From contig NZ_PGFB01000002.1 of the NCBI RefSeq assembly GCF_002797855.1, positions 372,001-436,000 on the forward strand: a stretch of DNA of 64,000 bases, in the 5' to 3' direction. The translations under genes and the position numbers were made by a program. The notes beneath the pieces were generated by a model, which was not told the DNA's origin, searched no databases, and worked only from the letters and a program-made list of their open reading frames with translations. How positions within the stretch are numbered: the first letter of the stretch is position 1; each line of letters starts with the position of its first letter. Shown piece after piece: positions 34,901 through 48,441 of this stretch. Source of the DNA: Compostimonas suwonensis (lineage in GTDB: Bacteria > Actinomycetota > Actinomycetes > Actinomycetales > Microbacteriaceae).

Positions 34901-35997
34901 ACGCCCAGGCCACCGGCGAGCGGCCCGTCGTCGGCCGCAACCTGCTCGCGACCGCGGGGTTCGTCGTGGGCTTCGCGCCGAGCACCTTCGCGTCGAGCGC
35001 GTTCGCCGCGACATCCCTCTCGCAGAGCACGCTCGACCCGGCCGCGGTGACCGACACCCGCGCGATCGGCGTCACGATGGCCGGCGCCGTCGCGGCTCTC
35101 GCCGCCCTCGCGCTGCCGGCCGTCGTGGGCGGCATCCGGCTGCGGCTCATCGCCGTGCTCACGGGCACGATCGCGGTGAGCTTCACAACACTCGTGCGCT
35201 CGGTGCAGAGCGCGATCCTGCCCGACGGATCGGTGTTCTCGAGCGACCTCTGGATGGCGTGCGGAGTGCTCGTGAGCGGCATCGTCGTCGCGATCTGGGC
35301 GAGCCGGGGTCTCGCGCCCTCGTGGATCGGGGTGCGCGGCACGATCCTGCCGATCGGCATCGTCGCCCTCACCGCGTGCGTCTCGCTCGTGACGCTGCCG
35401 GAACCGTCGCTGCGGGCGGTCATCACGGTGAGCCTGCTCGGGCTGCTCCACCTCGCCGCGGTCGTCTACGACTGGCCGCCGTTCGGCGTCACGACCCGCT
35501 ACGCGGCTCTGTGCGCCGCCGCCCTCGTGGGCCTCGTGGCGCTTCTGCCCGGCGGAGCGACGCCGTTCGAGCTCGTGACGGTGCCGTTCGCCGCCGCCCT
35601 CCTCGCCGCAGGGATCGTGCGCCTGCACCGCGACGCCCGGTCTCGCACCTGGCCTGCGCTCGGCCCGGGGCTCGCCGTGCTGCTCGTGCCCTCGCTCGTG
35701 CCCGACTACCTGGGCTCGGAGCTCTGGAGGGTCGTCGCGCTCGGCGTCGTCTGCGTGGCGCTCGTCGTGGCCGCGCTCGTGCTCAAGTGGCAGGCGCCGC
35801 TCGTGCTCGGAGGAGGCATCCTGCTGCTCCACGTGCTCGCGCAGCTCTGGCCGTGGATCGCGAGCCTCTACAACTCCGCGACCTGGTGGCTGTGGATCGG
35901 CGCCGGCGGCGTGCTCCTCATCGTCATCGCCGCGACGTACGAGAAGCGCATCCGCGACCTCAGGGCGGTGGCGCGGAGCGTGGGCTCCCTGCGCTGA
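31951..35997 (+). CDS. Very large polytopic membrane protein (SCO7613-type)
   Basis: 1348 residues. The N-terminus has a zinc ribbon (CPACFTRLRGTRCSSCG, about residues 30-46), a short charged helix, and an Ala/Pro-rich linker to about 165. It then has roughly 30-35 hydrophobic segments to the C-terminus. Actinobacterial genomes carry related proteins named after SCO7613; none has a known function to my knowledge. ATG 31951 gives the zinc ribbon a normal N-terminus. The gene follows the marR gene by 98 bp with no terminator seen. Codon use is as in its neighbours. Confidence 0.8.
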   Translation: MSNDSADGNRPLTGRFWPANPSLFASAEHCPACFTRLRGTRCSSCGLDLAVPLATELFEVSQGIVRGEEERQRIIERMRAEQARASAPAPAPDGAAAGVAGAAGAGRSPQNVHTPQAHLPAPAAVVPVPAAVPVPAAAAPPPGLLPPAPNPPAPAPPPIGPSRSGVQIVLLSLGVILVSVTAIFFVFVAYLIASLEVRAVLIAVASLVVFGISWLLMARRLGGTAEGVSVVGIVLLLLDAWLVRALGVFGSTAIDPALYSGVALLVIATVLVGVHVVAKVRATSIAASFIAPVGVVALIFGLTGSLDTATTWWASLLAMGAVGLLSGRIAALGLERVVVRSAGYAATTAAVLPAAFALPDHAWTRLVTGLAIAVVWAAYLLVLAGPKTGTARASTETSPPPTGASTTDARTTDPAKTGLRSGWARYAAVALGATTALALVFAVLATHDEGLGIWLAPVAVAALSLAAVLVERRIRENAVRSATRLALAPVGIIAGIALVPAAIVGILHYGGSLARSRELWSLGLADEASLLAPGLALGVVVALVGCALLGAAALRLSGRGGALWAGPSSLLALALLAGSAHLARPMWSALSFALLAIAALVATAYARRAARTPSGDGSGAVSIVGTCTAGLAILAVYVLAWSSAPLWPWSVLAALALAVAARRVLRDWCGAAASALLVGAVAAMAAFASAWIASWAVETGLTPGPATLADSAFWPGLAAAAALVVTAALARHMLRADAASIGVVAMITALAATVALLAAPSTPLDTDLARLIVFASITAAAVLWQFLPKTDPLRGTRASASTGDALPAAPPPGTGALHVQTAVLAAAAPLYLATALAQLHELLTPDVGLSMPGWIALAAVLAAGGSHLVRAAPRARLIAGDLATAVVAAVAVGGALLDDDELSWIPLLLSALVPLLIALRTGNPFTSGSPRRHLVWAAYGIAVLTLWQVLLVHGVEQLEYYSLPVAGSLLALSALVAWQRRAGDAQATGERPVVGRNLLATAGFVVGFAPSTFASSAFAATSLSQSTLDPAAVTDTRAIGVTMAGAVAALAALALPAVVGGIRLRLIAVLTGTIAVSFTTLVRSVQSAILPDGSVFSSDLWMACGVLVSGIVVAIWASRGLAPSWIGVRGTILPIGIVALTACVSLVTLPEPSLRAVITVSLLGLLHLAAVVYDWPPFGVTTRYAALCAAALVGLVALLPGGATPFELVTVPFAAALLAAGIVRLHRDARSRTWPALGPGLAVLLVPSLVPDYLGSELWRVVALGVVCVALVVAALVLKWQAPLVLGGGILLLHVLAQLWPWIASLYNSATWWLWIGAGGVLLIVIAATYEKRIRDLRAVARSVGSLR

Positions 35998-36015
35998 GTC
36001 CTCGGTGCGGCCCGG

Positions 36016-36684
36016 TCAGCGCTGCAGCCAGGCGAGAACCGCGAGCACCCGGCGATGGTCGGAGCCGGAGTCCTCGAGGCCGAGCTTCTGGAAGATCGCC
36101 GTCACGTTCTTCTCGACCGCGCCCACACCGATCACGAGCTCGGCCGAGATCCCCGTGTTCGTGCGGCCCTCCGCCATGAGCTCGAGCACCTCGCGTTCGC
36201 GCGGAGTGAGCCGGGCGAGCGGGTCGTTGCGCCGTGAGAGCAGCTCGCGCACGACCTGCGGGTCGAGCACGGTGCCACCGGCGCTCACGCGGGTCACGGC
36301 ATCCTTGAGCTCGTCGAGCGAGGCGACCCGGTCTTTGAGCAGATAGCCCATGCCGCCGTCGCCCGCGGAGAGCAGCTCGTGGGCGTAGGTGCCTTCGACG
36401 TACTGGCTCAGGAGCAGGATCGCGATGCCCGGCATCCGCTTGCGCAGCTCGATGGCGGCCTGCACGCCCTCGTCGCGGAACGACGGCGGCATCCGAACGT
36501 CGAGCACGGCCAGGTCGGGAGCGAGGCCCTCGACCTCGGCGAGCAGGCCGATCGCGTCGCCGTAGGCCGCGACCGTCTCGAAGCCGGCCTCGTCGAAGAG
36601 GCGCACGAGCCCTTCGCGCAGCAGCACGGAGTCCTCCGCGAGCACGAGTCGAAGAGGGGTCGCGCCTGGGGTGTCGTCGCTCAC
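36016..36684 (-). CDS. NarL/FixJ-family response regulator
   Basis: 222 residues. The receiver domain has the acidic pocket EDS, the phosphoacceptor Asp in DLAVLDVRMPP (about residue 58) and Lys in YLLKDRV. The C-terminal LuxR-type helix-turn-helix is LTPREREVLELMAEGRTNTGI through AVEKNVTAIFQKLGL. ATG 36684 overlaps the kinase stop, so kinase and regulator are coupled. It ends 18 bp from the convergent membrane-protein gene. Confidence 0.93.
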   Translation of the reverse strand: MSDDTPGATPLRLVLAEDSVLLREGLVRLFDEAGFETVAAYGDAIGLLAEVEGLAPDLAVLDVRMPPSFRDEGVQAAIELRKRMPGIAILLLSQYVEGTYAHELLSAGDGGMGYLLKDRVASLDELKDAVTRVSAGGTVLDPQVVRELLSRRNDPLARLTPREREVLELMAEGRTNTGISAELVIGVGAVEKNVTAIFQKLGLEDSGSDHRRVLAVLAWLQR

Positions 36685-38120
36685 GCCTCCCAGGATACGG
36701 GCACGGCACCGGCGGGGCTCTCGACGGGGATGTGGGCGCCGATCGAGGTGGGGCCGCCGGCCGGGCTGTCGATCACGAGCATGCCGCGCAGACCCCGGAG
36801 TCGTTCGTCGAGGCCGGCCAGCCCGTGCGAAGGGGTCATCGCCGCCCCGCCCCGCCCGTTGTCGGTCACCCAGAGGTCGAGCCAGCGCGGCCCGCCGGTC
36901 GGGTCGTCCCGCAGCGATGCCCGCAGCCGCAAGGCCGTGGCACCGGAGTGCTTCGAGGCGTTCGTGAGCAGCTCGGCGACGATGAAGTAGGCGCTCCGCT
37001 CGATCTCCGGGGGCAGCCGTGTCTCGGGGCCGAACTCGATCTCGGCGATCACGGGCACGGTACTGCGGGCCACGAGCGACTCGAGCCCGGCAACGAGCCC
37101 TCGGTCGTGCAGGATGGGCGGTGCGAAGCCGCGGGAGAGGGCGCGGAGCTCCTCGAGAGTGTCGCGGGCCTGATCGCGGGCCTCGGTCAGCAGCCTCCGG
37201 GCGGCCTCCGGGTCGTCTCCGAGCCGGCGCTCGGCGCTCGCGAGATCCATCTGCAGGCGCACGAGCCGCTGCTGCGGGCCGTCGTGGATGTCGCGTTCGA
37301 GGCGTCGCAACGACGCGTCCTCCGCAGCCACCGCCGCCCCGCGTGACGCGCTCAGGGTCGCGACCTCGCGCTGGAGCGCCTCGGAGCGCCAGGCGCCGAG
37401 CATCTCACGGGCGATCACGTTGTGCAGGCTCACGAGGCCGCGCGTGATGAAGGGCAGCACGAGCGCGAAGACGACGCCCACGACGAACAGGAAGATGTTC
37501 TCGCGCGTCAGGTGGTCACCCGAGAGCGGGATGCCGGGGAACGCCCACTCGAGCACGACGTCGGAGAGCCACACGTTCTTGTCGCCGTCGGTCAGGTACC
37601 GCGACCAGATCCAGTACGTCAGCCCGCCGAACGCGGTGGAGAACCATGCGATCGTGATCGACCAGGTGATGACCGAGACGATCGGGTTGACGAAGAGGGT
37701 GTGCACGAGGTTGAGCCAGTAGTGGCCGTCGATGATGGGCGCGAAGACCGAGCGCCAGAACCCGCCCCGGCGCCCTCGCGGCGACCACGACGCTCGCGGG
37801 ATGCGCGGTCGCCCGGCCCATTCGAGGCGCGCCATCTCGGTGCTGCCGAACGCACGCGACACGTACAGGCTGCCCACGGCGATGAAGATGCCGATGACGA
37901 TGGGGATCATGCCGAGCCCGGAGAAGAAGAGCGGGGCGACGATAACGAGGCCGGCGATCGCGATCGGCATGGTCAGGAACAGGAAGAGGAGCTCCTGGGG
38001 AAGCCGCGCCCACAGCCGGCCGTACAGCCCGCGTCGTCTCGCGGGAGCCGGTGCGGCCGTGGTGTCCATGCCCTCCAGAGTGTCAGAAGTCGTGGCGGGG
38101 AAGAGGATCTCAGTGCTCAT
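36681..38120 (-). CDS. Sensor histidine kinase (HisKA_3 type)
   Basis: 479 residues. An N-terminal membrane sensor region has about four to five helices (residues 30-235). The dimerisation/phosphoacceptor segment is RRLERDIHDGPQQRLVRL (His of DIHDG). The ATPase domain has the N-box VAELLTNASKHSG and G-box VTDNGRGG. It phosphorylates the regulator encoded in the same operon. The signal is unknown. ATG 38120 gives the natural N-terminus; the frame is open upstream, but that part is Arg/Pro-rich. Confidence 0.92.
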   Translation of the reverse strand: MSTEILFPATTSDTLEGMDTTAAPAPARRRGLYGRLWARLPQELLFLFLTMPIAIAGLVIVAPLFFSGLGMIPIVIGIFIAVGSLYVSRAFGSTEMARLEWAGRPRIPRASWSPRGRRGGFWRSVFAPIIDGHYWLNLVHTLFVNPIVSVITWSITIAWFSTAFGGLTYWIWSRYLTDGDKNVWLSDVVLEWAFPGIPLSGDHLTRENIFLFVVGVVFALVLPFITRGLVSLHNVIAREMLGAWRSEALQREVATLSASRGAAVAAEDASLRRLERDIHDGPQQRLVRLQMDLASAERRLGDDPEAARRLLTEARDQARDTLEELRALSRGFAPPILHDRGLVAGLESLVARSTVPVIAEIEFGPETRLPPEIERSAYFIVAELLTNASKHSGATALRLRASLRDDPTGGPRWLDLWVTDNGRGGAAMTPSHGLAGLDERLRGLRGMLVIDSPAGGPTSIGAHIPVESPAGAVPVSWEA

Positions 38121-38199
38121 GGTTCGTTCCGTCCGTTGTCCTGGCCCCAGCCTTCCGAAGCGCCGCCTCCGCCGGCAGCCGGCCGGCAGCCCAATCGGT

Positions 38200-38217
38200 G
38201 CGGGGGCTATCCCCCGC
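38200..38217. promoter_or_regulatory. Inverted repeat GCGGGGG-CTAT-CCCCCGC upstream of the kinase gene
   Basis: A perfect 7-bp inverted repeat, 80 bp upstream of the kinase start and 140 bp upstream of dps, within the 237-bp divergent region. The half CTATCCCCC recurs in the leader of the IniB-like gene (44190-44198). It could be the target of the NarL-type regulator; this is speculative. Confidence 0.35.
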
Positions 38218-38357
38218 CTCCTCCTCCGCATACGATCGTTGCCATCGAGCTCGCGACGTCGATCTCGGAACGGCCGTTGAGCCTAGCCTCAGCTTGCTTG
38301 CGGAATCTTCTGAGACGCGTAGCGTTTAACCCGACAACAGAGCGAAAGGGTCTCACA

Positions 38358-38846
38358 ATGACAAACACCACGACTGTTCCCCAGAGTGTGTCGAACCCGG
38401 ATGTCGCGGCTGGTGTCGCGCAGTTCCTCAGCCCGGTCGTCATCGACCTGACGGCCCTCGTCGTCAACGGCAAGCAGGCGCACTGGCACGTGCGCGGCGC
38501 GAACTTCATCGGCGTGCACGAGCTGCTCGACACGGTGGTCGCCCACGCGATGGAGTGGGCCGACATGGCCGCCGAGCGTGTCGTCGCACTCGGCCTGCCG
38601 ATCGACGCCCGCGTGCAGACGGTCGCCGCCAAGACCACGACCGCGAAGCTCACCGCCGGCTTCCAGCAGTCGAACGAGACGATCCGCGAGGTCATCGCGC
38701 AGATCGACGCCGCCCTCGTGAGCGTCAACGCCGCCGTCGCCGAGCTCGACGACCTCGACCAGACGAGCCAGGACGTCGCGATCGAGATCGCCCGCGGCCT
38801 CGACAAAGACCGCTGGTTCCTCTTCGCCCACATCAGCGAGGGCTGA
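38358..38846 (+). CDS. dps: Dps/ferritin-like DNA-binding protein
   Basis: 162 residues, four-helix Dps fold. The inter-subunit ferroxidase residues lie in QAHWHVRGANFIGVHELLD and AMEWADMAAERV, matching the family signature. Dps dodecamers store iron and protect DNA under oxidative or stationary stress. GAAAGGG lies 8 nt before ATG 38358. It is divergent from the histidine kinase gene. Confidence 0.95.
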   Translation: MTNTTTVPQSVSNPDVAAGVAQFLSPVVIDLTALVVNGKQAHWHVRGANFIGVHELLDTVVAHAMEWADMAAERVVALGLPIDARVQTVAAKTTTAKLTAGFQQSNETIREVIAQIDAALVSVNAAVAELDDLDQTSQDVAIEIARGLDKDRWFLFAHISEG

Positions 38847-38934: not shown

Positions 38935-39597
38935 ATGGCAAAGGAGCTGGATCCGGGCGAGCCCGACCGCGAGAACTCGGGTCTCGACGAGGGGACGACG
39001 CCTGCGCCCTTCACGGCCTCGGAGTTTCGCCACCGTCCGGCCGGACAGCCCCCGCGGCCGGAGATGTCCGATCTCACCCCGGCTCCGGTCCAGCTCCCGA
39101 CCAGCCCGGATGGAGTGATTCGGGTTTCGCGCACACTGTGGCTCGGCAGCTTCGTGGCGAGCCTGGCGGCGATCGCTTTCGTCTTCCTCTCGCGGAACAC
39201 CCGCATCGATCGGCTCGAGGAGTTCGTCTCCGAAAGGGCTCCGGATGAGAATGCGAGCACCGTCGAATCGGTCGCGACCGTCATCATGTGGGCGAGCATC
39301 GCGGCCCTCGGCCTGTTTCTGATCATTCAGGCCCTTCTGCTCCACGGCATCACGCACAGGCACGGCTCGGTGCGCTGGGCCATGCTCGTTGTGCTCGTCG
39401 GACAGATTGCCGCGACGGTTGTCGTCGACTCCTTCATCGCGACAGGAGACGAGGGGATCTACATCACGGCGATCCTGCTCCTGCAGATCGTATTAGCTTG
39501 CGCGGCGCTCATAACGAGCTTCCTTCCCGGGTCGCGCCACTGGTTCCGTCCTGACCGTCAGATCACCGAGAACCGGTCCGGACCCACCGCCGGGTGA
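38935..39597 (+). CDS. Four-helix membrane protein of unknown function
   Basis: 220 residues. A cytosolic-looking polar N-terminus (about 60 residues, Pro/Glu-rich) is followed by four membrane helices (about 65-86, 112-138, 147-166, 173-195) and a short basic tail. I do not recognise a family. No ribosome site precedes ATG 38935; a TACATT at 38921 would put transcription start near the ATG, so leaderless translation is possible. It converges on the second dynamin-like gene and overlaps it by 105 bp, so the end of helix 4 and the tail are encoded opposite the GTPase's disordered C-terminus. Confidence 0.7.
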   Translation: MAKELDPGEPDRENSGLDEGTTPAPFTASEFRHRPAGQPPRPEMSDLTPAPVQLPTSPDGVIRVSRTLWLGSFVASLAAIAFVFLSRNTRIDRLEEFVSERAPDENASTVESVATVIMWASIAALGLFLIIQALLLHGITHRHGSVRWAMLVVLVGQIAATVVVDSFIATGDEGIYITAILLLQIVLACAALITSFLPGSRHWFRPDRQITENRSGPTAG

Positions 39598-41079
39598 GGG
39601 AGGGCGCGATTCGTCTCCGGTGAGAATCGCCTCGCAACTGCGAACGACGGTCTCGCACAGCTGTGTGGTCTCGTGGTCGCTCAGGGGGCTCGTCGCGCGT
39701 TGCCTCCACCGTCGGGCGCTCGCGAGGGCCTCGAAATGGATGGCCTCGCGGGAGGCGTCTTCGTCGAGCGCGAGTCGCTGTACGGCTGCCGTGCCCACGC
39801 CGCCGATGAGACGCTCGGCCTCCTCCACCAGGGGGCGATCCAGGGGGTACACCCCCAGGCGCAGGGTCGCGAGCGTCTGAAGCTCAGTGATCTCGTGCGC
39901 GCCGGCGATGATGCGTTCGAGGGCCGTCGCGATCCGGTCGTCTCCCTCGTGCGGTCGATCGTGTACGAGGGAGTCGACTCCGGTCAGAACGGTGAGCGAC
40001 TGCAGCTGCGCCGCGCGTGCGCTGAACTGTCCCGTTACCATACGCTGCAGCTCGTCGAGCCCGCTGTGCCGTGCGAGTTCGCGAGCGAGCGAGGGCGCAT
40101 CGTCTGCGCCCGCGGTGATCAGGACCGCGGCCATCCGAATGCCGAACACTCCGAAACGGTCCAGAAGCGCAGAACGGGTCTCGCTGCTCAGCGTCAGCAG
40201 CGCGGTGGGCCGTACGAAACGATCCGCCGAGATCAGCAGCCGTTCTCGGTCTTCCCTGTCGAGGTGGGCGACCTCGACGAGTGCAGCGAACTCGGACTGA
40301 CGGAGCGTGCGCGCCGTCTGCGCAAGCAGCCCGGCAACCGGTACCACTCCGAGCACGAGCCTGCGCAGAGTGTCGTCGTGCCTGTACCGGTCCGCGATGT
40401 CCCGAGCGGAGATGAGCGCATCGATGCGACCCGCGCCGATCTCGTCCGCACGGGAGAGAACGGCGAGGGCATTGACGGTTCGCGACCGCCCGAGAGCGAG
40501 ATCTCGGAAGGACTCGAGAAAATTGACGTCGGCGGCATGCATGTGCCGGAGCAGATAGACGACGGCATCCACCTCGAATGCCGATGATCGGGGAACGAGG
40601 AAGGCGTTGGATCGTTCGGATATCCCGGAGGAGAGCGAGGCGATGCCGGGAGTGTCGATGAGCGTCACCCTGCGAAGCCCCTGCGCCGGCCAGTCGACGA
40701 CGATGCGCGCGATCTCCTCCAGCGGCTCTGCCCCGATGTCGAACACAAGCCGGCCGCGTTCCCTCGTGATCGCCAGCGCACGGCGTTCGCCGGTCGTGAG
40801 TTCGAGCGTGACCTTCGGAGTGTCTCCGTAGCGGTACCAGGTGACGATCCGCGTGCACTCGCCCGCATCCGTCGGAGCGACCTCCTCCCCGATCATCGCA
40901 TTCAGCAGAGTCGACTTCCCCGCTTTAACCATGCCTGCGATGGCGATTCGCAGCGGTTGCCCCAACCGGGCCTGGTATCCCTTCAGGATGTCCCGCGCCT
41001 TGGGGTCGTCGGCGTAGACCTCGATGGCGTCTCTCAGGAGCACGGACAGTGGAGTGCTCTCGGTCTCGACGGCGCTCAC
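39493..41079 (-). CDS. Dynamin-like GTPase, IniC-like
   Basis: 528 residues. The GTPase domain has the P-loop GMVKAGKST (49-57), G3 DTPG (142-145) and G4 SRAD (about 210). The remainder is helical, with no membrane hairpin, and ends in a Gly/Pro/Arg-rich disordered tail of about 35 residues. Mycobacterial IniC is a similar-sized dynamin-like protein lacking the transmembrane segments of its partner IniA. ATG 41079 overlaps the IniA-like stop (ATGA), so the pair is translationally coupled, as expected for a heteromeric membrane-remodelling complex. Confidence 0.88.
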   Translation of the reverse strand: MSAVETESTPLSVLLRDAIEVYADDPKARDILKGYQARLGQPLRIAIAGMVKAGKSTLLNAMIGEEVAPTDAGECTRIVTWYRYGDTPKVTLELTTGERRALAITRERGRLVFDIGAEPLEEIARIVVDWPAQGLRRVTLIDTPGIASLSSGISERSNAFLVPRSSAFEVDAVVYLLRHMHAADVNFLESFRDLALGRSRTVNALAVLSRADEIGAGRIDALISARDIADRYRHDDTLRRLVLGVVPVAGLLAQTARTLRQSEFAALVEVAHLDREDRERLLISADRFVRPTALLTLSSETRSALLDRFGVFGIRMAAVLITAGADDAPSLARELARHSGLDELQRMVTGQFSARAAQLQSLTVLTGVDSLVHDRPHEGDDRIATALERIIAGAHEITELQTLATLRLGVYPLDRPLVEEAERLIGGVGTAAVQRLALDEDASREAIHFEALASARRWRQRATSPLSDHETTQLCETVVRSCEAILTGDESRPPSPGGGSGPVLGDLTVRTEPVARPGKEARYERRAS

Positions 41080-42911
41080 ACCGTGGCAACTTGCATCGGC
41101 TCGCTGTCGAGCACCGAGGCCTGCTTGCGCAGCGCATCCACACGCACGAGCTCGGCCTTGATCTCTGCGCTGCGTCGTTCGCCCTCGAGGGTGAACCTGC
41201 TCGCGGCGCGCTGCGCAGCCAGCATCGATTCACCCAATGAGCGATGGCGCTCGTCGGCGATGGTCGTGAAATGGTCGCGGGTCGCGCGCTGAACGAGTCT
41301 CATACGATCCTTGAGCTGCTTCCCCACCTGGAAGACGACGTCGTCGATCTGGTGCCGCACAAGCGTCTTCGCCTCTGTCTGCCGCCGTTTGAGGCGGGTC
41401 TCCTTGTCCTCCCGATAGGCCTTGCCACCGATGAGCACCCCTGCTGCGATCGAGAACGGGTTGATCAGCGACATACCGACGATGCCCGTGAGCAGTCCGA
41501 TCATGAGCACACCGCCGTACGATCCGCGCATGCCGATGAGCATCTTCTGCACAACCGTCAGCTCCCCGGCGTCGAGCATCGGGACGACCTCGACGGGATC
41601 GAGCACGTCATCCGTGTTGTCGACGCGCACGACCGGCAGCGGCACCTCGTCGCGCGCGAAATGCTCGGCAACCTGCCGGGAGAGCCACTGCGCCCGTTCA
41701 TTCGTCCAGACGAAGGTATCCGAGACGGCGGCGGCGATCCGTTGCTCGAGCCAGTCGCCGAATTGCTCCCACACGGGGCTCGGATCGCCGGCGTCGATCG
41801 CCTGCTCGGCGTCTCGCAGGATGCTGCGCATCCGGTCGCGAAGGTCATGCTCCATATCGGAGATGAGGTCGCTCATGCCGTCCGTGAGAGTGACCTGCCA
41901 GCGAGCCGAGCGACGCCTCATCTCGTCGGCTCGCTCCTTGGCCGCCTCGAGTTCCGCGACCACCTGAGGCGTGTCCTCCGGGTTTGTGATCGCCCTCAGC
42001 TCGGACTGCAACGAGAGCCGAAGATGGTCCGCTGTCGACCGCAGGTCGTGAGCGATGGAATGTCGCTGCAGACGTTCCGCCTTGCCGAGAATCTCGCTGC
42101 GCAGGTACTTGACGAGATCGGGGAATCCCGATTCGGCGTTGAGCTCGCCGTCCCCGGTCCGCGCCGCCTTCAGGCGGAGTTCGGACGACGTCGAGAACAA
42201 CGGGATGTCGAGTCCGGCGTCGCGCAGGTGCGCCTCATCGAGTGCGGCGACCTGACGCCAGTGGGGATATAGATCGGTCTTCGACAGCACGCAGCCGACG
42301 TTGGGGCAGATTCTCATCGCCTGACGCAGGAACTGGATCTCCGGCTCGGTGTACTCCTGTGAGGCGTCCGACACGAGGAGCATCGCGTCGGCTGTGGGAA
42401 GCGCGGTGAGGGTCGTGAGCGAGTGCGCCGAGTCCAGTCCGCCGACACCCGGTGAATCGACGAGGGAGAGGCCACCCGTGAGAATCTTGCGAGGCAGCCG
42501 CACTTCAGCTGACAACAGCTGTCTCTCGTTGCCCGGATTGCCGCGCTCGGAGACGAGCTCCGCGAGCTCCCCGAGATCGACGGGGCGTGACTCGACATTC
42601 GCCTCGGAGCCTCCCGGCTCCGAACCGGTCCTCGACAGCATCACAACCGCGGAGGGAACCTCGCCGAACCGGACGGCCGTGGGGACCGATGTCGCGATGT
42701 CGTCATCGACGGGACACACAGGAGCATTGACAAGAGCGTTGATGAGCTGGCTCTTGCCCTGTTTGAACTCTCCGACGACGATCACACGAGTGCTCGCATC
42801 GAGCAGGCGTTGCCGCGTCTGCGCGAGGCGCCGCTCGAGGTCGGGTCGATTGCCAGCTCGGGCGAGCGCTGAAGCGCGGTCGACCAGTTTGAGGAGTTCA
42901 GCCACTTCCAT
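41076..42911 (-). CDS. Dynamin-like GTPase with membrane hairpin, IniA-like
   Basis: 611 residues. The P-loop is GEFKQGKS (47-54), G3 is DSPG (152-155), and G4 is SKTD (210-213). A long helical region (270-440) is followed by a hydrophobic hairpin at about 466-496 (GGVLMIGLLTGIVGM, then INPFSIAAGVLIGG) and a helical return. This is the layout of bacterial dynamin-like proteins and of IniA, in which the hairpin inserts in the inner membrane. It follows the IniB-like gene by 122 bp and is coupled to the second GTPase. Membrane fission or repair is the expected activity. Confidence 0.9.
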   Translation of the reverse strand: MEVAELLKLVDRASALARAGNRPDLERRLAQTRQRLLDASTRVIVVGEFKQGKSQLINALVNAPVCPVDDDIATSVPTAVRFGEVPSAVVMLSRTGSEPGGSEANVESRPVDLGELAELVSERGNPGNERQLLSAEVRLPRKILTGGLSLVDSPGVGGLDSAHSLTTLTALPTADAMLLVSDASQEYTEPEIQFLRQAMRICPNVGCVLSKTDLYPHWRQVAALDEAHLRDAGLDIPLFSTSSELRLKAARTGDGELNAESGFPDLVKYLRSEILGKAERLQRHSIAHDLRSTADHLRLSLQSELRAITNPEDTPQVVAELEAAKERADEMRRRSARWQVTLTDGMSDLISDMEHDLRDRMRSILRDAEQAIDAGDPSPVWEQFGDWLEQRIAAAVSDTFVWTNERAQWLSRQVAEHFARDEVPLPVVRVDNTDDVLDPVEVVPMLDAGELTVVQKMLIGMRGSYGGVLMIGLLTGIVGMSLINPFSIAAGVLIGGKAYREDKETRLKRRQTEAKTLVRHQIDDVVFQVGKQLKDRMRLVQRATRDHFTTIADERHRSLGESMLAAQRAASRFTLEGERRSAEIKAELVRVDALRKQASVLDSEPMQVATV

Positions 42912-43033
42912 CCCCTGTTCTCATCATTCGAGTCTGTGCGTTCCGCATGGTGCGGAACAGGAGACATCGACTCGGTGGGGAACCCGAATCATCCCCACCG
43001 AGTCGACATCGGCGCGCAGCCGCGCGAACTGGT

Positions 43034-44086
43034 CTACGGCAGGATGGGCACCGTCGCCTCGAGAGTCACGTCGAGATCGACCTCGTTGTCGGCGACCACG
43101 ATCGAGTCGTCGATGTCGGTGAACTCGACGTCCTCGACATCGATGTCGGTCGACTCGTCGTTGAACGAGTCGTCCACGTCGATGTCGGTCGACTCGTCGT
43201 TGAACGAGTCGTCCACATCCACGTCCACGTCGGTGGACTCGTCGTTGAACGAGTCGTCCACATCCACGTCCACGTCGGTGGACTCGTCGTTGAACGAGTC
43301 GTCCACGTCCACATTCGTGGACGAGTCTTCGTTGAAGGACTCCTCCGGGTTGAACGAGTCCTCGATGGTGGTGGACTCATCATTGAACGAGTCGTCGACA
43401 TCGACGTCGACACTCGTCGAGTTGTCCTCGTTGAACGAGTCGTCGACATCGATGTCCGTGGAGTTGTCCTCGTTGAACGAGTCGTCGATATCGAGGTCGA
43501 GGTTCGTCGAGTTGTCCTCGTTGCCCACAACGGCGTCTCCACCCGCGATCACGTTCGTGGAGTGGTCGTCCGACGCATCGACGTCGTCGCCGGCGGCGAT
43601 CGCGTTGTCGCCCGAGGCGATGATCGCCTCGTTGTCGAAGAGCTGGTTGACGTCGCCGTCGGCCCAGATCGCCTGGTTGACGGACTGGTCGACGTTCGTC
43701 TCCCGGTTGTCCCAGGCCTTGTAGGAATAGGTGTTGATCACCTCGTTGATCTGGGTGACCGCGTGCCCGTGGTCATCGTCCGGACGGTAGTGTCCGCCAC
43801 CGCCGTTGCCACCATTACCGCCGTTGCCACCCGCACCGCCGTGACCGCCCGCGCCACCGTTACCACCGGCGCCACCATTACCACCGGCACCGCCTCCGCC
43901 GCCCGCCGCGACCGACGAGGAGTCCAGAAGGACGGGCATCACGGCCGCGACGTCGTCCGAGCAGACATTGCTGAGTCCGGCGCCTGCGAGCGAGGTCTCG
44001 GGGTCGGCTCGGAACTCATCGGCGGCATCGGGGTTCCTGAGAAGATCCATCAGGAAATCGAGAAGACTGGTGGTCAAAGTTGACAT
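43034..44086 (-). CDS. IniB N-terminal-domain protein with Gly-rich linker and acidic DSFN repeats
   Basis: 350 residues, strongly acidic. Residues 1-55 form an IniB-type N-domain (LLDFLMDLLRNPDAADEFRAD, split here as LLDFLMDLLRNP and AADEFRADPETSLAGAGL, then DDVAAVMPVLLD). A Gly/Asn-rich linker follows to about residue 100 (repeated GGAGGNGG). Residues 110-190 are Asp/Asn/Ala-rich, and 190-330 contain nine DSFN/ESFN units with D/V/S/T spacers. There is no signal peptide, membrane helix or catalytic motif. AGGAAA precedes ATG 44086. Mycobacterial IniB shares the N-domain and a Gly-rich body; its role is unknown. The acidic repeats may be a scaffold or cation-binding surface (inference). Confidence 0.82.
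   Translation of the reverse strand: MSTLTTSLLDFLMDLLRNPDAADEFRADPETSLAGAGLSNVCSDDVAAVMPVLLDSSSVAAGGGGGAGGNGGAGGNGGAGGHGGAGGNGGNGGNGGGGHYRPDDDHGHAVTQINEVINTYSYKAWDNRETNVDQSVNQAIWADGDVNQLFDNEAIIASGDNAIAAGDDVDASDDHSTNVIAGGDAVVGNEDNSTNLDLDIDDSFNEDNSTDIDVDDSFNEDNSTSVDVDVDDSFNDESTTIEDSFNPEESFNEDSSTNVDVDDSFNDESTDVDVDVDDSFNDESTDVDVDVDDSFNDESTDIDVDDSFNDESTDIDVEDVEFTDIDDSIVVADNEVDLDVTLEATVPILP
43140..43515. repeat. Tandem repeat tract inside the IniB-like gene (18-48 bp spacing)
   Basis: The core TTGAACGAGTCGTC (plus strand) or close variants occurs nine times, at about 43161, 43200, 43245, 43290, 43332, 43350, 43383, 43431 and 43473. The two intervals from 43200 to 43290 are exactly 45 bp and nearly identical over their length, as expected for recent duplication. 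All spacings are multiples of 3, so the repeat number can vary in frame. Confidence 0.9.
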
Positions 44087-44192
44087 GAGCTTTTCCTAAC
44101 TTCTTGCGTATCGGATGAAGAGTGTCCCCGAACTCATCGCTCGGAATTCGATAACCGTACGAGCAGCGGCGGCCACTCGGCATCGGTGCCTA

Positions 44193-44222
44193 TCCCCCTG
44201 TCGAACCGACGGTGCAGGGGGA
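44193..44222. promoter_or_regulatory. Inverted repeat TCCCCCTG-N14-CAGGGGGA upstream of the IniB-like gene
   Basis: A perfect 8-bp inverted repeat with a 14-bp spacer lies 107-136 bp upstream of ATG 44086, in the 193-bp gap between the LuxR gene and the IniB-like gene. The symmetry and spacing suit a LuxR/NarL dimer, but an RNA hairpin is also possible. Confidence 0.45.
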
Positions 44223-44279
44223 AACCGCACGCACCGCACGGGGGTGAGGGGGGACAGCGCAAACAGGATCGGTTCTCGG

Positions 44280-46391
44280 TCATAACACGCCGTCTTCGTC
44301 GCCGAGAACGACACGGAGCTGCGCGAGCATCTCCGATCGGCTCGTGGCCGCCAGGCGATGGCGAATGCGCTCCATGTGGTGTTCCACAGTGCGGGGAGAG
44401 ATGAACATCGTCTCGCCGATCTCCCGATAATTCTTGCCCTGTAGCACGAGCTGCGCGACCTCGCGCTCCCGAGAGCTCAGCTCGGGTCGCCCGACGGAAC
44501 CGTCACCATGAAGCTGTGCAGGATCGGACGCCGGTGTGTCGGTCGCCGACGGGTCGAGGCCAGCTCGGCGCAGCTCGCGTGCGCACGCGAGGAGCCGCGA
44601 CATCTCCTTGCGATCCGCCGCACGCGCCGCGGCGTGACCAGCCAGACGAGCGCCGTCCCAGCCGAGCCCGACGGTCGCGAGACCCCGCGCCGCGTCGTCG
44701 ACCGCAGCTGCGTCGACACGGCCCGCGAGGACGTCGAGCCATGCGCGGCCGGCCGTCGACATCATCGCCGCCGGACGACTGTGTTCCCCTGCACGTACGA
44801 GAGCCGCCGCATCGGGGGCGAGGCTTCGTGGTTCCCCTGCCAGGATCGCTGCCTGCACCGATGCCCAGTGCAGGGGAACGCACCACAGGAGAGGGCTACC
44901 GAGGCGCTCGAGAAGGTTCCACGCCTCATCCAGTTGATAACGCACCTTATCGGATTCTCCAAGCCGCGCCGATGCGACGACCAGTTCGCCGACGGGCAGA
45001 AGATCGAAGAGATCGATGGCCACGTGCAGGATGCTGTCGTGGGCTCTTCTCCACGCACCGGTGAGTTCGGCGACCGCATCGGTGCGGCGCGCTATGCCCA
45101 CTGCAAGCGCCCTCGAGAGCAGTTCGTCGCGGGCGGTGAGTCGTCCGTCGCCGGCATCCGCCTCCGCGACGGCCGCTCTCGCATCCGCAACACGATCCTC
45201 GAGCATGGCAACCCAGCCACGCAGAAGCAGCAGCCTCGTTCGCGCCGCCGCTCCGCCCTGGGCTCGCTCGAGCGCCTCTTCGAGCACGCTGCCCGCCACA
45301 GCGACGTCACCGCCCTGGATCGCAACGAGCGCCGCGAGCGCCGCGGGACTCTCAGGCACAGGAACGACAGCACCCGACGCGGTCATCATGTCGGACGCTC
45401 GGATGAGAGTAGGCAGAGCCTGTACGCCCGACCCCTCCAGCGAGTCGCGTACGCCCTGTGCCATCAGGCTCGCCGCAACCGAGACGACGGTCGGCGACGA
45501 TGAACCGGCAGAAGCCAGCATCGCCGCAGCACCGTTCCGGTCCCCGGCGCCGATCATCGCGACAGCGGCGAACGCGGCGGACGTCGCAGCCATCTCCGTG
45601 CCATGCCAGCGGTAGAGCTCGGAGCTCCGTCCGAGCATTCCCCGGCTCGCCCACACCGCCGCTCCGACGTCGATGGCCCGCCCTCGGTCGGGTGCCGAGT
45701 CATCGGCCAGATGATCATCGACGATCCGCCCGGCCGTGTCCAGATCGCCGGCTGCCCAAGCGACCTGCGCGCGGCGCGCCGCCAGCGCCCGGGAATCAGC
45801 CCCTGCTCCGATAGCCTCCTCATAGAGCTCGGCTGCGTGGTCCGGAGCGACCAGAAGCAGCCGGTCTCCTTCGCGCTCGAGCACCCGGGCGATCCGCAGA
45901 TCGACCAGTCCTCCGCGCGCGAGTGACCGAGCGCGATCGCTGAGCAAACGGCCGTCCACAACGAGCGCGTCGACGATCTTGCGTTGTATCGCCCGGACAC
46001 GATGCCCGGCAACGGTCGTCAGGATCGTGTTGCGCACGGACTCGATCAGCGTGCCGTCCTCGGTGACGAGTCCCGCCGCCTGCGCCTCCCCGAGAATGCC
46101 GTCGTCGACCTCGATGTCGCCGTCAGGTCTCCACAGCTCCACGTCGCCGCCGACGGCGAGCACGAGGATGAACTCGCGGAGCCGAGGCTCGAGGGCGGTG
46201 ATCGTCCTGGTCAGATGCTCGTCGTCGACGGAATCCGCCTGATCCTGATCAGATCGCCCGTCGACCGTTGGTGCCACACCGGACGAAGCATCGCTGGACG
46301 GAGGGCGTTGCCGCCCGACGGGATCGGGCAGAGGCTCAGCCGCAGTCCGCCAGGCGCGCTGGGAGTCCTCGTTCGCCGGTCGAAAGCGCAC
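44280..46391 (-). CDS. Large LuxR-family transcriptional regulator
   Basis: 703 residues. The N-terminal 60 residues are polar and disordered, the middle (about 60-600) is Ala/Leu-rich and helical with TPR-like pairs, and the C-terminal helix-turn-helix is ELSSREREVAQLVLQGKNY through SPRTVEHHMERIRHRL. I see no Walker A motif, unlike many large LuxR (LAL) regulators. It starts 6 bp after the Hsp70 gene ends, so they share a transcript, and the IniB-like gene follows. By position it resembles IniR, the LuxR-type activator of mycobacterial iniBAC; function here is inferred. Confidence 0.85.
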   Translation of the reverse strand: MRFRPANEDSQRAWRTAAEPLPDPVGRQRPPSSDASSGVAPTVDGRSDQDQADSVDDEHLTRTITALEPRLREFILVLAVGGDVELWRPDGDIEVDDGILGEAQAAGLVTEDGTLIESVRNTILTTVAGHRVRAIQRKIVDALVVDGRLLSDRARSLARGGLVDLRIARVLEREGDRLLLVAPDHAAELYEEAIGAGADSRALAARRAQVAWAAGDLDTAGRIVDDHLADDSAPDRGRAIDVGAAVWASRGMLGRSSELYRWHGTEMAATSAAFAAVAMIGAGDRNGAAAMLASAGSSSPTVVSVAASLMAQGVRDSLEGSGVQALPTLIRASDMMTASGAVVPVPESPAALAALVAIQGGDVAVAGSVLEEALERAQGGAAARTRLLLLRGWVAMLEDRVADARAAVAEADAGDGRLTARDELLSRALAVGIARRTDAVAELTGAWRRAHDSILHVAIDLFDLLPVGELVVASARLGESDKVRYQLDEAWNLLERLGSPLLWCVPLHWASVQAAILAGEPRSLAPDAAALVRAGEHSRPAAMMSTAGRAWLDVLAGRVDAAAVDDAARGLATVGLGWDGARLAGHAAARAADRKEMSRLLACARELRRAGLDPSATDTPASDPAQLHGDGSVGRPELSSREREVAQLVLQGKNYREIGETMFISPRTVEHHMERIRHRLAATSRSEMLAQLRVVLGDEDGVL

Positions 46392-46397
46392 CGCGGC

Positions 46398-48314
46398 TCA
46401 TTCCTCCGTCGCCGCCTGCTGTTCGTCGGGCATCGACGTGTCGGAGCTCGACTCGGCTGGCGCCTCCAGTGTGCTCTGGACGACGGGCGCTGGATCGGAA
46501 GGCTCAGACTCGACAGGTGCCGGGTCCATCGGAGCCGGATCGTCCGGAACAGGATCAACGGGAGCCGGATCGTCCGGAACAGGATCAACGGGAGCCGGAT
46601 CCTCTGGAACAGGATCAACGGGAGCAGGTTCCTCGGGAGCCGGGCTCTCAGGCACAGGGGCTGCCTGCTGGGTGTCGACAGGGGCGGGAGGATCCTCAGA
46701 CAGCGAGCCCGCCTGAGGAGCAGCGGGGGCGACCGGCGCAGGAGACGCTCCGCGAATCGGCCCCTCAGACGATCCCGATGGTCTCTGCAGCTCGACAGCA
46801 GGCGCGGGTGCGTTGTTCGACGGCGAGGGGGAGGCGGGAACCCTCCAAGGCATCTCTGGCGGCGCAGCACCGTCTGGTGCGAGCGGCGGCGCGGGCGGTT
46901 CGTTCACGGTGCTCGAGTCGCGCACCACTTCTTCCGCACCCGACGACACGCCCTCTCCGCTTTTCTCCTGCACGGAACCCTGCGCGGCGATGTCGTGAAG
47001 GACAACGGGCGATGCGGCACCGACGACATACATGATCGCTCCGACTGCAACCGCGACGACGCCAGCGCGCAGCCCGACCCGAGAATGCAGAAGCACCGCC
47101 GCATCGGCCGGCGCCGCCGCGAACACCGCAGGGATGCGCCCCCGGGGTCGACGCTCGACCAGACCTTCGGCCGCCTCGCCCGGCTCCGCGGTGATCGCGG
47201 CAGCGGCCTCCATGCTCGCAAGTGCCTCCTGCGCGGAGGCCGCTGTCGCGATGGCCGCACCGAGGGCGATCGTCGCCTTCGGGTCGGTGTCGATTGCGAT
47301 GGCGCACCCCAGTTGCTCGGAGAGGAGCTGGGTGACGAGCGGAACGCGTGAGGACCCGCCCGTGAGCAGGATCGCCGTGAGATCGTCCGGTTCGAGCCCT
47401 CCTCGTTGGATCGCATGCCGGAGCACGGCGATCGTCTCCTGCACCGCGGGGGCGATCATCCTCTCCAGCTCGGACCGCACGAGACGGACTTCGGTCTGCA
47501 GCTCAGGCAGCAGAACCGGGATCGCCGTCTCAGAGTCGAACGACAATGCCTCTTTGGCCTCGACGCATTCGCGACGCATTCGCGACACGGCCATGAGGGT
47601 GCCTGGATCGGCGAGGTCGATGGAAGCGAAGGAGTCGCCGAGACTCGCTATGGTATGGCGGAAGACGAGATCGTCGAAGTCGATTCCTCCCAGATGCTCG
47701 ATGCCCTCCGGTCGCCCGATCGGCTCGAAGCCGCCGTCTTCCGTCCTGCGCAGGATCGCGACGTCGAAGGTGCCGCCGCCCAGGTCGTAGACAGCGATAG
47801 TGGAGCCGGGCACAAGCTGACCCTGCATCGCATAGTGCACCGCCGCCGCCTCCGGCTCGGTGATCAGGCCGATGTCGGGCAGTCCGGCCCGCGCGAGACT
47901 CTCACGCACGAGCTGACGTTTGTACTGTCCCCACCCGGCCGGATGCGAGAGCGTGATCGCGAAGGGGGGAGCGCCCTCACGCTCGGTGGCCCGGGCGACC
48001 ACCCAGACCACGAGTGCGGCGAAGGCGTCCTCCGCCGCGATGCCGCTCTCCCCCACGAGAATCGGCACCCCGTCCCCGACTCTGCGCTTGAACTCCCTGA
48101 CAACGCGGTCTGCGCAGACGAGAGCCCGTCGCTCCGCCGCCTCGCCGACCACAAGCTGGAGGTCGTCGTCGTAGAAGAGCACTGAAGGCACGGCGTCCCG
48201 ACGCTGGCCGAGCGGCAGCGCGATCGGGCTCTCAGTACTGGCTTCCTCGTCCATCCGCAGCGTCGCTGCCGCGGTGAACGTGGTGCCGACATCGATCCCC
48301 AACAGATACGGCAT
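46398..48314 (-). CDS. Membrane-anchored Hsp70-like ATPase with Pro-rich repeat tail
   Basis: 638 residues. An actin/Hsp70 nucleotide-binding domain covers 1-370: phosphate-1 GIDVGTTFT (6-14), phosphate-2 YDLGGGTFDVAI (176-187), adenosine loop TGGSSRVPLV (318-327). The Hsp70 substrate-binding domain is missing. Instead there is a basic stretch, one membrane helix (about 414-438), and a tail of 200 residues rich in Pro/Ala/Asp with PVDPVPDDPA decapeptide repeats, probably outside the membrane. It is the first gene of the operon with the LuxR regulator. Such a layout suggests an ATP-driven sensor or scaffold rather than a folding chaperone (inference). Confidence 0.88.
   Translation of the reverse strand: MPYLLGIDVGTTFTAAATLRMDEEASTESPIALPLGQRRDAVPSVLFYDDDLQLVVGEAAERRALVCADRVVREFKRRVGDGVPILVGESGIAAEDAFAALVVWVVARATEREGAPPFAITLSHPAGWGQYKRQLVRESLARAGLPDIGLITEPEAAAVHYAMQGQLVPGSTIAVYDLGGGTFDVAILRRTEDGGFEPIGRPEGIEHLGGIDFDDLVFRHTIASLGDSFASIDLADPGTLMAVSRMRRECVEAKEALSFDSETAIPVLLPELQTEVRLVRSELERMIAPAVQETIAVLRHAIQRGGLEPDDLTAILLTGGSSRVPLVTQLLSEQLGCAIAIDTDPKATIALGAAIATAASAQEALASMEAAAAITAEPGEAAEGLVERRPRGRIPAVFAAAPADAAVLLHSRVGLRAGVVAVAVGAIMYVVGAASPVVLHDIAAQGSVQEKSGEGVSSGAEEVVRDSSTVNEPPAPPLAPDGAAPPEMPWRVPASPSPSNNAPAPAVELQRPSGSSEGPIRGASPAPVAPAAPQAGSLSEDPPAPVDTQQAAPVPESPAPEEPAPVDPVPEDPAPVDPVPDDPAPVDPVPDDPAPMDPAPVESEPSDPAPVVQSTLEAPAESSSDTSMPDEQQAATEE
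46531..46620. repeat. Three 30-bp tandem repeats in the Hsp70 tail
   Basis: Units at 46531-46560, 46561-46590 and 46591-46620; the first two are identical and the third differs at a few bases. They encode PVDPVPDDPA-type decapeptides. Flanking sequence is a degenerate continuation. Confidence 0.92.
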
Positions 48315-48404
48315 GGTACCCCCTCACGATGAGCAGTCATCATTGATGCTCTCGAAGAAGTTCAGGCTAACACCCTGATACTTTTTAGGATAGGACCCCA
48401 GAAG

Positions 48405-48441
48405 ATGGTCTATTATACGTGCCTGATTTCGGATATGGTCT
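48405..48441 (-). promoter_or_regulatory. Promoter of the Hsp70-LuxR operon with paired AGACCAT boxes
   Basis: On the minus strand a perfect TATAAT (48417-48412) lies about 100 bp upstream of ATG 48314. The place of the -35 box is occupied by AGACCAT (48441-48435) instead of TTGACA. The same AGACCAT recurs just after the -10 (48411-48405), exactly 30 bp away. The region (48340-48460) is markedly AT-rich. This looks like a regulated promoter needing an activator, or repressed by a protein spanning both boxes. Confidence 0.55.

Follow-up and report, generated by a model that had tools for sequence, protein, structure and literature searches.

The locus described here lies in a window of 64,000 nucleotides of the Compostimonas suwonensis genome (contig NZ_PGFB01000002.1, positions 372,001 to 436,000), in which five tightly packed open reading frames on the minus strand, at positions 39493-48314, encode a membrane Hsp70 that has only the nucleotide-binding domain (NBD), a LuxR regulator, a protein with an IniB N-terminal (IniB-N) domain, and two dynamins, IniA and IniC. 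All five open reading frames are where the original prediction of five consecutive minus-strand genes had placed them; the block is real, and only its proposed end, 48441, lies a little beyond the start of the Hsp70 gene at 48314. The genes and features are as follows.

46398-48314, minus strand: Hsp70-like protein (638 aa; PF00012, E 1.8e-44)
47004-47060, minus strand: transmembrane (TM) segment of the Hsp70-like protein, residues 419-437 (hydropathy scan; near-universal in homologues)
46527-46640, minus strand: proline-rich 30-bp repeats coding for (PAPVDPVPDD)n in the predicted extracytoplasmic Hsp70 tail (tandem repeats, tail composition)
44280-46391, minus strand: LuxR protein, an IniR homologue (703 aa; NF038181, E 1.7e-113; GerE, 3e-14)
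44180-44199, minus strand: candidate IniR-responsive box AGGGGGATAGGCACCGATGC upstream of iniB (enrichment of the box at iniB)
43034-44086, minus strand: IniB-like protein (350 aa; IniB_NTERM NF038175, 66.5 bits)
43145-43523, minus strand: tandem 45/48-bp repeats coding for the acidic DDSFNDESTDVDVDV repeats of the IniB-like protein (TRF)
41076-42911, minus strand: IniA-like dynamin-like GTPase (611 aa; PF00350, 2.3e-19; match to 6j72)
39493-41079, minus strand: IniC-like dynamin-like GTPase (528 aa; PF00350, 1.3e-12; synteny in about 100 loci)

The gap between the hsp70 stop and the iniR start is 6 nt, and iniA and iniC overlap by 4 nt. The same block of five genes is seen in about 100 loci and so is not a product of chance. 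With the order iniB-iniA-iniC and an adjoining IniR-type regulator, the locus has the defining genes of an iniBAC-type system. iniBAC is the classic drug-induced (isoniazid-induced) operon of tuberculosis bacteria and is usually treated as a response of the mycolate envelope. The 3' end of iniC is overlapped by 105 nt by a convergent plus-strand open reading frame (38935-39597; 220 aa, membrane-like, no family). The downstream flank (window positions 36016-38846) carries a NarL-type two-component pair and a Dps/ferritin-like gene, and the upstream flank carries genes for an FMN-binding protein, an Fpg-type glycosylase, and RpiB. The strongest deviation in composition in the window is at positions 32001-36000 (74.7% G+C, AT skew -0.26).

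The IniB-N domain recognized in the original prediction persisted in a profile search, in which the match to the IniB_NTERM model NF038175 scored 66.5 bits (E 1.5e-18), above the cut-off of 40. The protein is made up of the helical IniB-N domain, a Gly-rich linker, a core of the TDQSVNQNIWADGDV type that is conserved in the alignment, and acidic DSFN/DNS repeats. In the structural model the helical N-domain has pLDDT values mostly above 88, and the repeats are modelled at low confidence, so no fold is assigned to them. The N-domain (window positions 43920-44086) weakly resembles a LigAB structure (1bou chain A) and the SonA RiPP precursor, with Z scores of 3.9 or less, a likeness that might point to a possible origin of the domain and was not used as evidence. 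Four loci (L076, L086, L090, and L093) have two IniB-N genes, which are local duplications of the iniB unit; in L076 and L086 the promoter boxes are near-identical.

IniA matches the solved M. smegmatis IniA structure (6j72) over its full length (residues 6-594, E 1.6e-142), with the P-loop GEFKQGKS at residue 47, a Dynamin_N match (PF00350, 2.3e-19), and a single hydrophobic (paddle) segment at residues 465-483, the same region as the hydrophobic segment predicted at 463-485 in M. smegmatis IniA (PMC6715688). At residues 491-502 the window protein reads LIGGKAYRED where M. smegmatis IniA reads VLGRKAYKED; if an offset in numbering is assumed, the Arg of the latter is probably the membrane-binding R488, and an Arg also stands at the R488-like position in the A1 alignment consensus. 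IniC has the P-loop GMVKAGKS at residue 49 and a Dynamin_N match (PF00350, 1.3e-12), and a hydropathy scan revealed no paddle segment comparable to that of IniA. It is distinct from IniA, occupies the same position as IniC of mycobacterial loci, and is ~43% identical to it. The predicted order of an IniB-type protein, a dynamin with a membrane segment, and a second dynamin without one was thus borne out. In M. smegmatis, IniA cuts membranes with GTP (PMC6715688), and in M. tuberculosis both IniA and IniC are required for vesicle release (PMC11077946).

The regulator, taken in the original prediction for a different LuxR protein, is in fact an IniR homologue. Its top match is the IniR model NF038181 (E 1.7e-113, model positions 226-825 of 827), and this homology excludes an unrelated LuxR regulator. 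It is not an IniR equivalog, scoring 380.6 bits against a cut-off of 750, a shortfall due to a missing ATPase domain. The ATPase domain of M. marinum IniR comprises amino acids 24-247 (PMC5760070); in the window protein the N-terminal AAA+/STAND ATPase domain is absent, and the upstream DNA contains neither a Walker A motif nor any similarity to that domain. A frameshift is excluded as the cause, since only 6 nt separate hsp70 from iniR and the upstream frame encodes the Hsp70 tail; a frameshift origin is also contradicted by the recurrence of ATPase loss in many genomes. The predicted structure (pLDDT 87.5) is a helical superhelix followed by a LuxR/GerE helix-turn-helix (HTH; GerE, 3e-14), and residues 266-612 find their best structural match in MalT domain III (1hz4; Z 19.9, rmsd 4.2, 338 of 366 residues). 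A MalT domain III-like assignment has been published for M. marinum IniR, for which trehalose is the activator (PMC5760070). The window protein therefore resembles MalT and other STAND regulators in its superhelix and C-terminal LuxR HTH but differs from them in having no NTPase domain.

The Hsp70-like protein has an actin-type ATPase domain (residues 1-360) in which the canonical motifs GIDVGTT, DLGGGTFD, and LTGGSSRVP are intact. In this nucleotide-binding domain, with its phosphate and adenosine motifs, it resembles DnaK-type Hsp70 chaperones, from which it differs in lacking the substrate-binding domain and lid: the PF00012 match stops at profile position 373 of 599, and in place of these parts there is the TM segment at residues 419-437 and a proline-rich, acidic tail of 201 aa with 23% proline and almost no Lys or Arg. 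The composition of the tail predicts that it lies outside the cytoplasmic membrane, in the wall, with the ATPase inside. The NBD-TM-proline-rich tail architecture is kept in nearly all homologues, including those with decayed NBD motifs. In related loci hsp70 immediately precedes iniR, as a rule with no more than about 15 nt between them, and in four of the five mycobacterial loci examined (L038, L039, L040, and L050) a membrane Hsp70-family protein is likewise encoded directly upstream of iniR; in L049, also mycobacterial, the gene lies beyond iniC. A dnaK-like gene adjoins iniR in M. smegmatis (Boot 2017, PMC5760070). The Hsp70 had been seen in the original prediction as an addition outside mycobacteria, but its presence beside iniR in mycobacterial loci makes it an old companion of the iniBAC system and not an innovation. 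In five loci from other actinobacterial classes (L041, L042, L044, L046, and L047) this gene set recurs with hsp70 and iniB in divergent orientation and with hsp70 not beside iniR. The ATPase motifs of Hsp70 are degenerate in mycobacteria and in several other loci. In the part of the literature covered, no report linking iniBAC to Hsp70 outside mycobacteria was found.

Matches to the IniR model NF038181 are patchily distributed: 16 of the 396 genomes taken from across the phylum have one, as do 24 of 400 from the family. A scan of named genomes with the IniA profile identified 399 relatives, of which the best 80 include Arthrobacter, Pseudarthrobacter, Paenarthrobacter, Georgenia, Agreia, Cryobacterium, Herbiconiux, Naasia, Agromyces, Microbacterium, and others. 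Co-occurrence of the five genes in other genomes had been named beforehand as the test that could overturn the prediction; all five are present in 69 of these best 80 of 399 relatives, in 65 of them on one strand in the order hsp70-iniR-iniB-iniA-iniC. In 10 of the 11 incomplete loci the contig ends less than 5 kb from IniA; the remaining one lacks only a detectable IniB-N match. The locus is also found in other actinobacterial classes. The Arthrobacter, Pseudarthrobacter, Paenarthrobacter, Agreia, Georgenia, Agromyces, Naasia, and Microbacterium loci share the same five genes, mostly in the same order and spacing, and the same promoter box described below; they differ among themselves in that the IniR ATPase is present in some (Georgenia, Agromyces, Naasia, and Microbacterium) and absent from most Arthrobacter-type loci, and in that Microbacterium-type loci have iniA and iniC on the opposite strand. 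In L147, L151, and L152, hsp70 is joined to iniR although iniA and iniC point the opposite way.

Microbacteriaceae are not known to have mycolic acids, and the prediction of an iniBAC-like operon outside the mycolate group, in this case with a membrane Hsp70, was supported. The window shares with the mycobacterial iniR-iniB*-iniBAC locus (M. tuberculosis Rv0339c-Rv0343, M. marinum, and M. smegmatis) an IniR homologue, an IniB-N protein, the IniA and IniC dynamins in the order B-A-C, a regulator beside the operon, a promoter element directly upstream of iniB, and, as for the M. smegmatis dnaK-like gene (PMC5760070), an Hsp70-type gene beside iniR. The mycobacterial loci have IniR proteins above the NF038181 cut-off, and one (L039) has an Rv0340-family iniB*. 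In contrast, the five genes of the window all have the same orientation, iniR lies behind hsp70 and is not divergent from iniB*, there is no separate iniB*, IniR has no ATPase domain, the Hsp70 ATPase motifs are intact, and the host belongs to a group not known to have a mycolate envelope.

The iniR-iniB intergenic region contains CCCCTAA-type repeats, then CGGTAGGGGG-N5-CCCCGATGC, and then a TA.GTT-like -10 region; CCCCTAA-type repeats are also found upstream in mycobacterial and distant-class loci. The pattern AGGGG-N5-11-CCGATG is present in 62 of the 110 regions upstream of iniB, compared with 0.27 after dinucleotide shuffling, and the window copy lies at 44180-44199 (44158-44199 when the downstream TA is included). 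In M. tuberculosis, the one organism in which IniR binding is reported here, an IniR ChIP peak lies just upstream of iniBAC (PMC5760070), and we regard the AGGGG-N-CCGATG box as a candidate IniR-responsive element. A search of the organism's own genome for a wider regulon with a loose form of the pattern gave two hits, the same as the reversed control; because the loose pattern also hits by chance, the evidence for the box is confined to its enrichment at iniB. The same box precedes hsp70 in only 9 of 101 loci.

Across 97 nonredundant loci, IniR has a Walker A motif in 40, ATPase similarity without Walker A in 5, and no trace of the domain in 52. The trait changes about 11 times on the IniA+IniC tree (counted before the correction of L076), and the ATPase has thus been lost repeatedly. 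In three draft loci (L076, L119, and L163) IniR appears to be frameshifted, and L076 was counted as ATPase-positive. Decay of the Hsp70 motifs (DLGGGTFD and others) was found in 15 loci, 13 with an IniR ATPase and 2 without, so that the motifs are intact in 55 of the 57 loci without an IniR ATPase and decayed in the other two (L164 and L171). A strict rule of exactly one ATPase per pair is refuted, both being present in 27 loci and neither in L164 and L171. For complementary loss, a leaf-level Fisher test gave p 9e-5, a value inflated by relatedness, and tests on the tree were not significant (Pagel-type likelihood test, p 0.16, or 0.09 without three doubtful rows; independent-pairs test, no significance). 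The fitted rate of Hsp70-motif loss was 0 without an IniR ATPase and 0.65 with one. These data suggest, as a lead and not a result, given the nonsignificant tree-aware tests, that the Hsp70 ATPase is retained where IniR has none.

From the observed gene set with its conserved linkage, the loss of domains, the promoter box common to these loci, and the predicted IniR fold, our best explanation, which we consider to have about an even chance of being right, is that the locus works as an envelope-stress operon of iniBAC type under the control of IniR, gated by the membrane Hsp70 and with membrane-cutting dynamins as its output. The anchored NBD-only Hsp70, with its predicted topology of a proline-rich tail in the wall and an ATPase inside, would report the state of the envelope and gate the IniR homologue encoded 6 nt downstream. 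IniR, which here has lost its STAND-type ATPase switch and kept its MalT-III-like sensor superhelix and LuxR DNA-binding domain, would when active turn on the iniB promoter via the conserved AGGGG-N-CCGATG box. IniB, with its helical N-domain and long acidic repeats, may serve as an abundant scaffold, and the IniA/IniC pair would cut or bud the cytoplasmic membrane, so that damaged patches are removed or vesicles released. The activation and output steps are drawn by analogy from mycobacteria, where IniR activates iniBAC after treatment with wall inhibitors or trehalose (PMC5760070) and where IniA fission and IniA/IniC vesicle release have been described. An Hsp70 with a wall-directed tail, next to an IniR with no NTPase of its own, is well placed to act as an envelope sensor gating IniR. 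This reading is supported by the identity of IniR, its missing ATPase and MalT domain III match, the agreement of ChIP peak and box at iniB, the five-gene linkage, the Hsp70 adjoining iniR with its conserved NBD-TM-tail architecture, the 6j72 match, and the M. tuberculosis vesicle data. Against it stand the nonsignificance of the complementary-loss pattern on the tree and the fact that we found no literature with experiments in a nonmycobacterial member. Moreover, the position of hsp70 away from iniR in other classes means that a direct Hsp70-IniR pair is not universal, and its degenerate motifs in mycobacteria and several other loci mean that ATP turnover by Hsp70 cannot be essential everywhere. 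A narrower proposal, that Hsp70 and IniR form a split nucleotide switch in which IniR depends on the transmembrane Hsp70, acting in trans, for the ATPase control that it has itself lost, is put forward tentatively, and we think it more probably wrong than right. If it were true, envelope damage sensed at the proline-rich tail would be passed through an actin-type ATPase to a LuxR activator, and Hsp70 would be used as a transmembrane stress receptor and not as a chaperone.

Next in rank after gating of IniR by Hsp70 is an account, possible but not probable, in which Hsp70 belongs to the effector side, as a wall-spanning anchor or an ATP-driven partner of IniB and the dynamins, and in which the signal, a sugar such as trehalose, is detected solely by IniR with its MalT-III-like domain. 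Retention of the MalT III fold (Z 19.9), the activation of mycobacterial iniBAC by trehalose (PMC5760070), the divergence of hsp70 from iniB and its distance from iniR in other classes, and the loss of ATPase motifs in mycobacteria while the TM segment and tail stay would all suit such a role. It fits poorly with the joining of hsp70 to iniR, and not to iniB, throughout Actinomycetales and in four mycobacterial loci, a join that persists where iniA and iniC are reversed (L147, L151, and L152). An unlikely alternative is that the window's IniR, lacking the ATPase, is a simplified regulator, either ligand-only or constitutive, with Hsp70 as a linked envelope protein outside the signal path. Absence of the ATPase domain from 52 of 97 loci and of Walker A from 5 more, through many separate losses, indicates that the switch is dispensable, as this alternative would have it. 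Against it, almost all ATPase-less loci of Arthrobacter type with enough contig retain hsp70 beside iniR, and the Hsp70 motifs are intact in 55 of the 57 loci that lack the IniR ATPase.

Dynamins are found in bacterial defence, and phage defence had been raised as a possibility in the original prediction. In such a system the dynamins would seal or destroy the membrane of an infected cell, and Hsp70 and LuxR would act as the sensor. We consider this very improbable. Weak PADLOC matches to LeoA/LeoBC speak for it, but these are generic dynamin/HTH matches accounted for by the dynamin fold, the synteny is stable, there were no phage hits, the single plasmid-collection hit is a 2.66-Mb Nocardia record, and the neighbours are ordinary housekeeping genes. 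In PADLOC, the phage and plasmid collections, and the neighbouring genes, we found no described defence family beyond the dynamin fold and no defence neighbourhood.

The iniBAC system, its activation by IniR, and the dnaK-like gene beside iniR in M. smegmatis are already known (PMC5760070). What is new here is the input side, a transmembrane Hsp70-type ATPase joined to an IniR without its own NTPase, for which we propose a sensor role. The original prediction had not included three features: that the IniR homologue has lost its ATPase domain, that a promoter box is conserved, and that Hsp70 has an NBD-TM-proline-rich architecture with no substrate-binding domain. The occurrence of iniBAC, with a shared promoter box, in mycolate-free Micrococcales, and its occurrence in other actinobacterial classes, point to a general lesion of the envelope or cytoplasmic membrane as the probable signal. 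The function of IniB, the signal for IniR, and the purpose of Hsp70 can now be approached in Arthrobacter-type bacteria, which are harmless and grow fast, and the repeated loss of the IniR ATPase provides natural variants for asking whether the membrane Hsp70 acts as a switch. One locus, L043, has IniR and a membrane Hsp70 with no iniB, iniA, or iniC detected within about 20 kb and may represent a dynamin-free IniR-Hsp70 pair. Among the mycobacterial loci, L038, L039, and L050 have an upstream, iniR-coupled Hsp70 with degenerate ATPase motifs and a second Hsp70-family gene, which follows iniR in L038 and L039 and iniC in L050.
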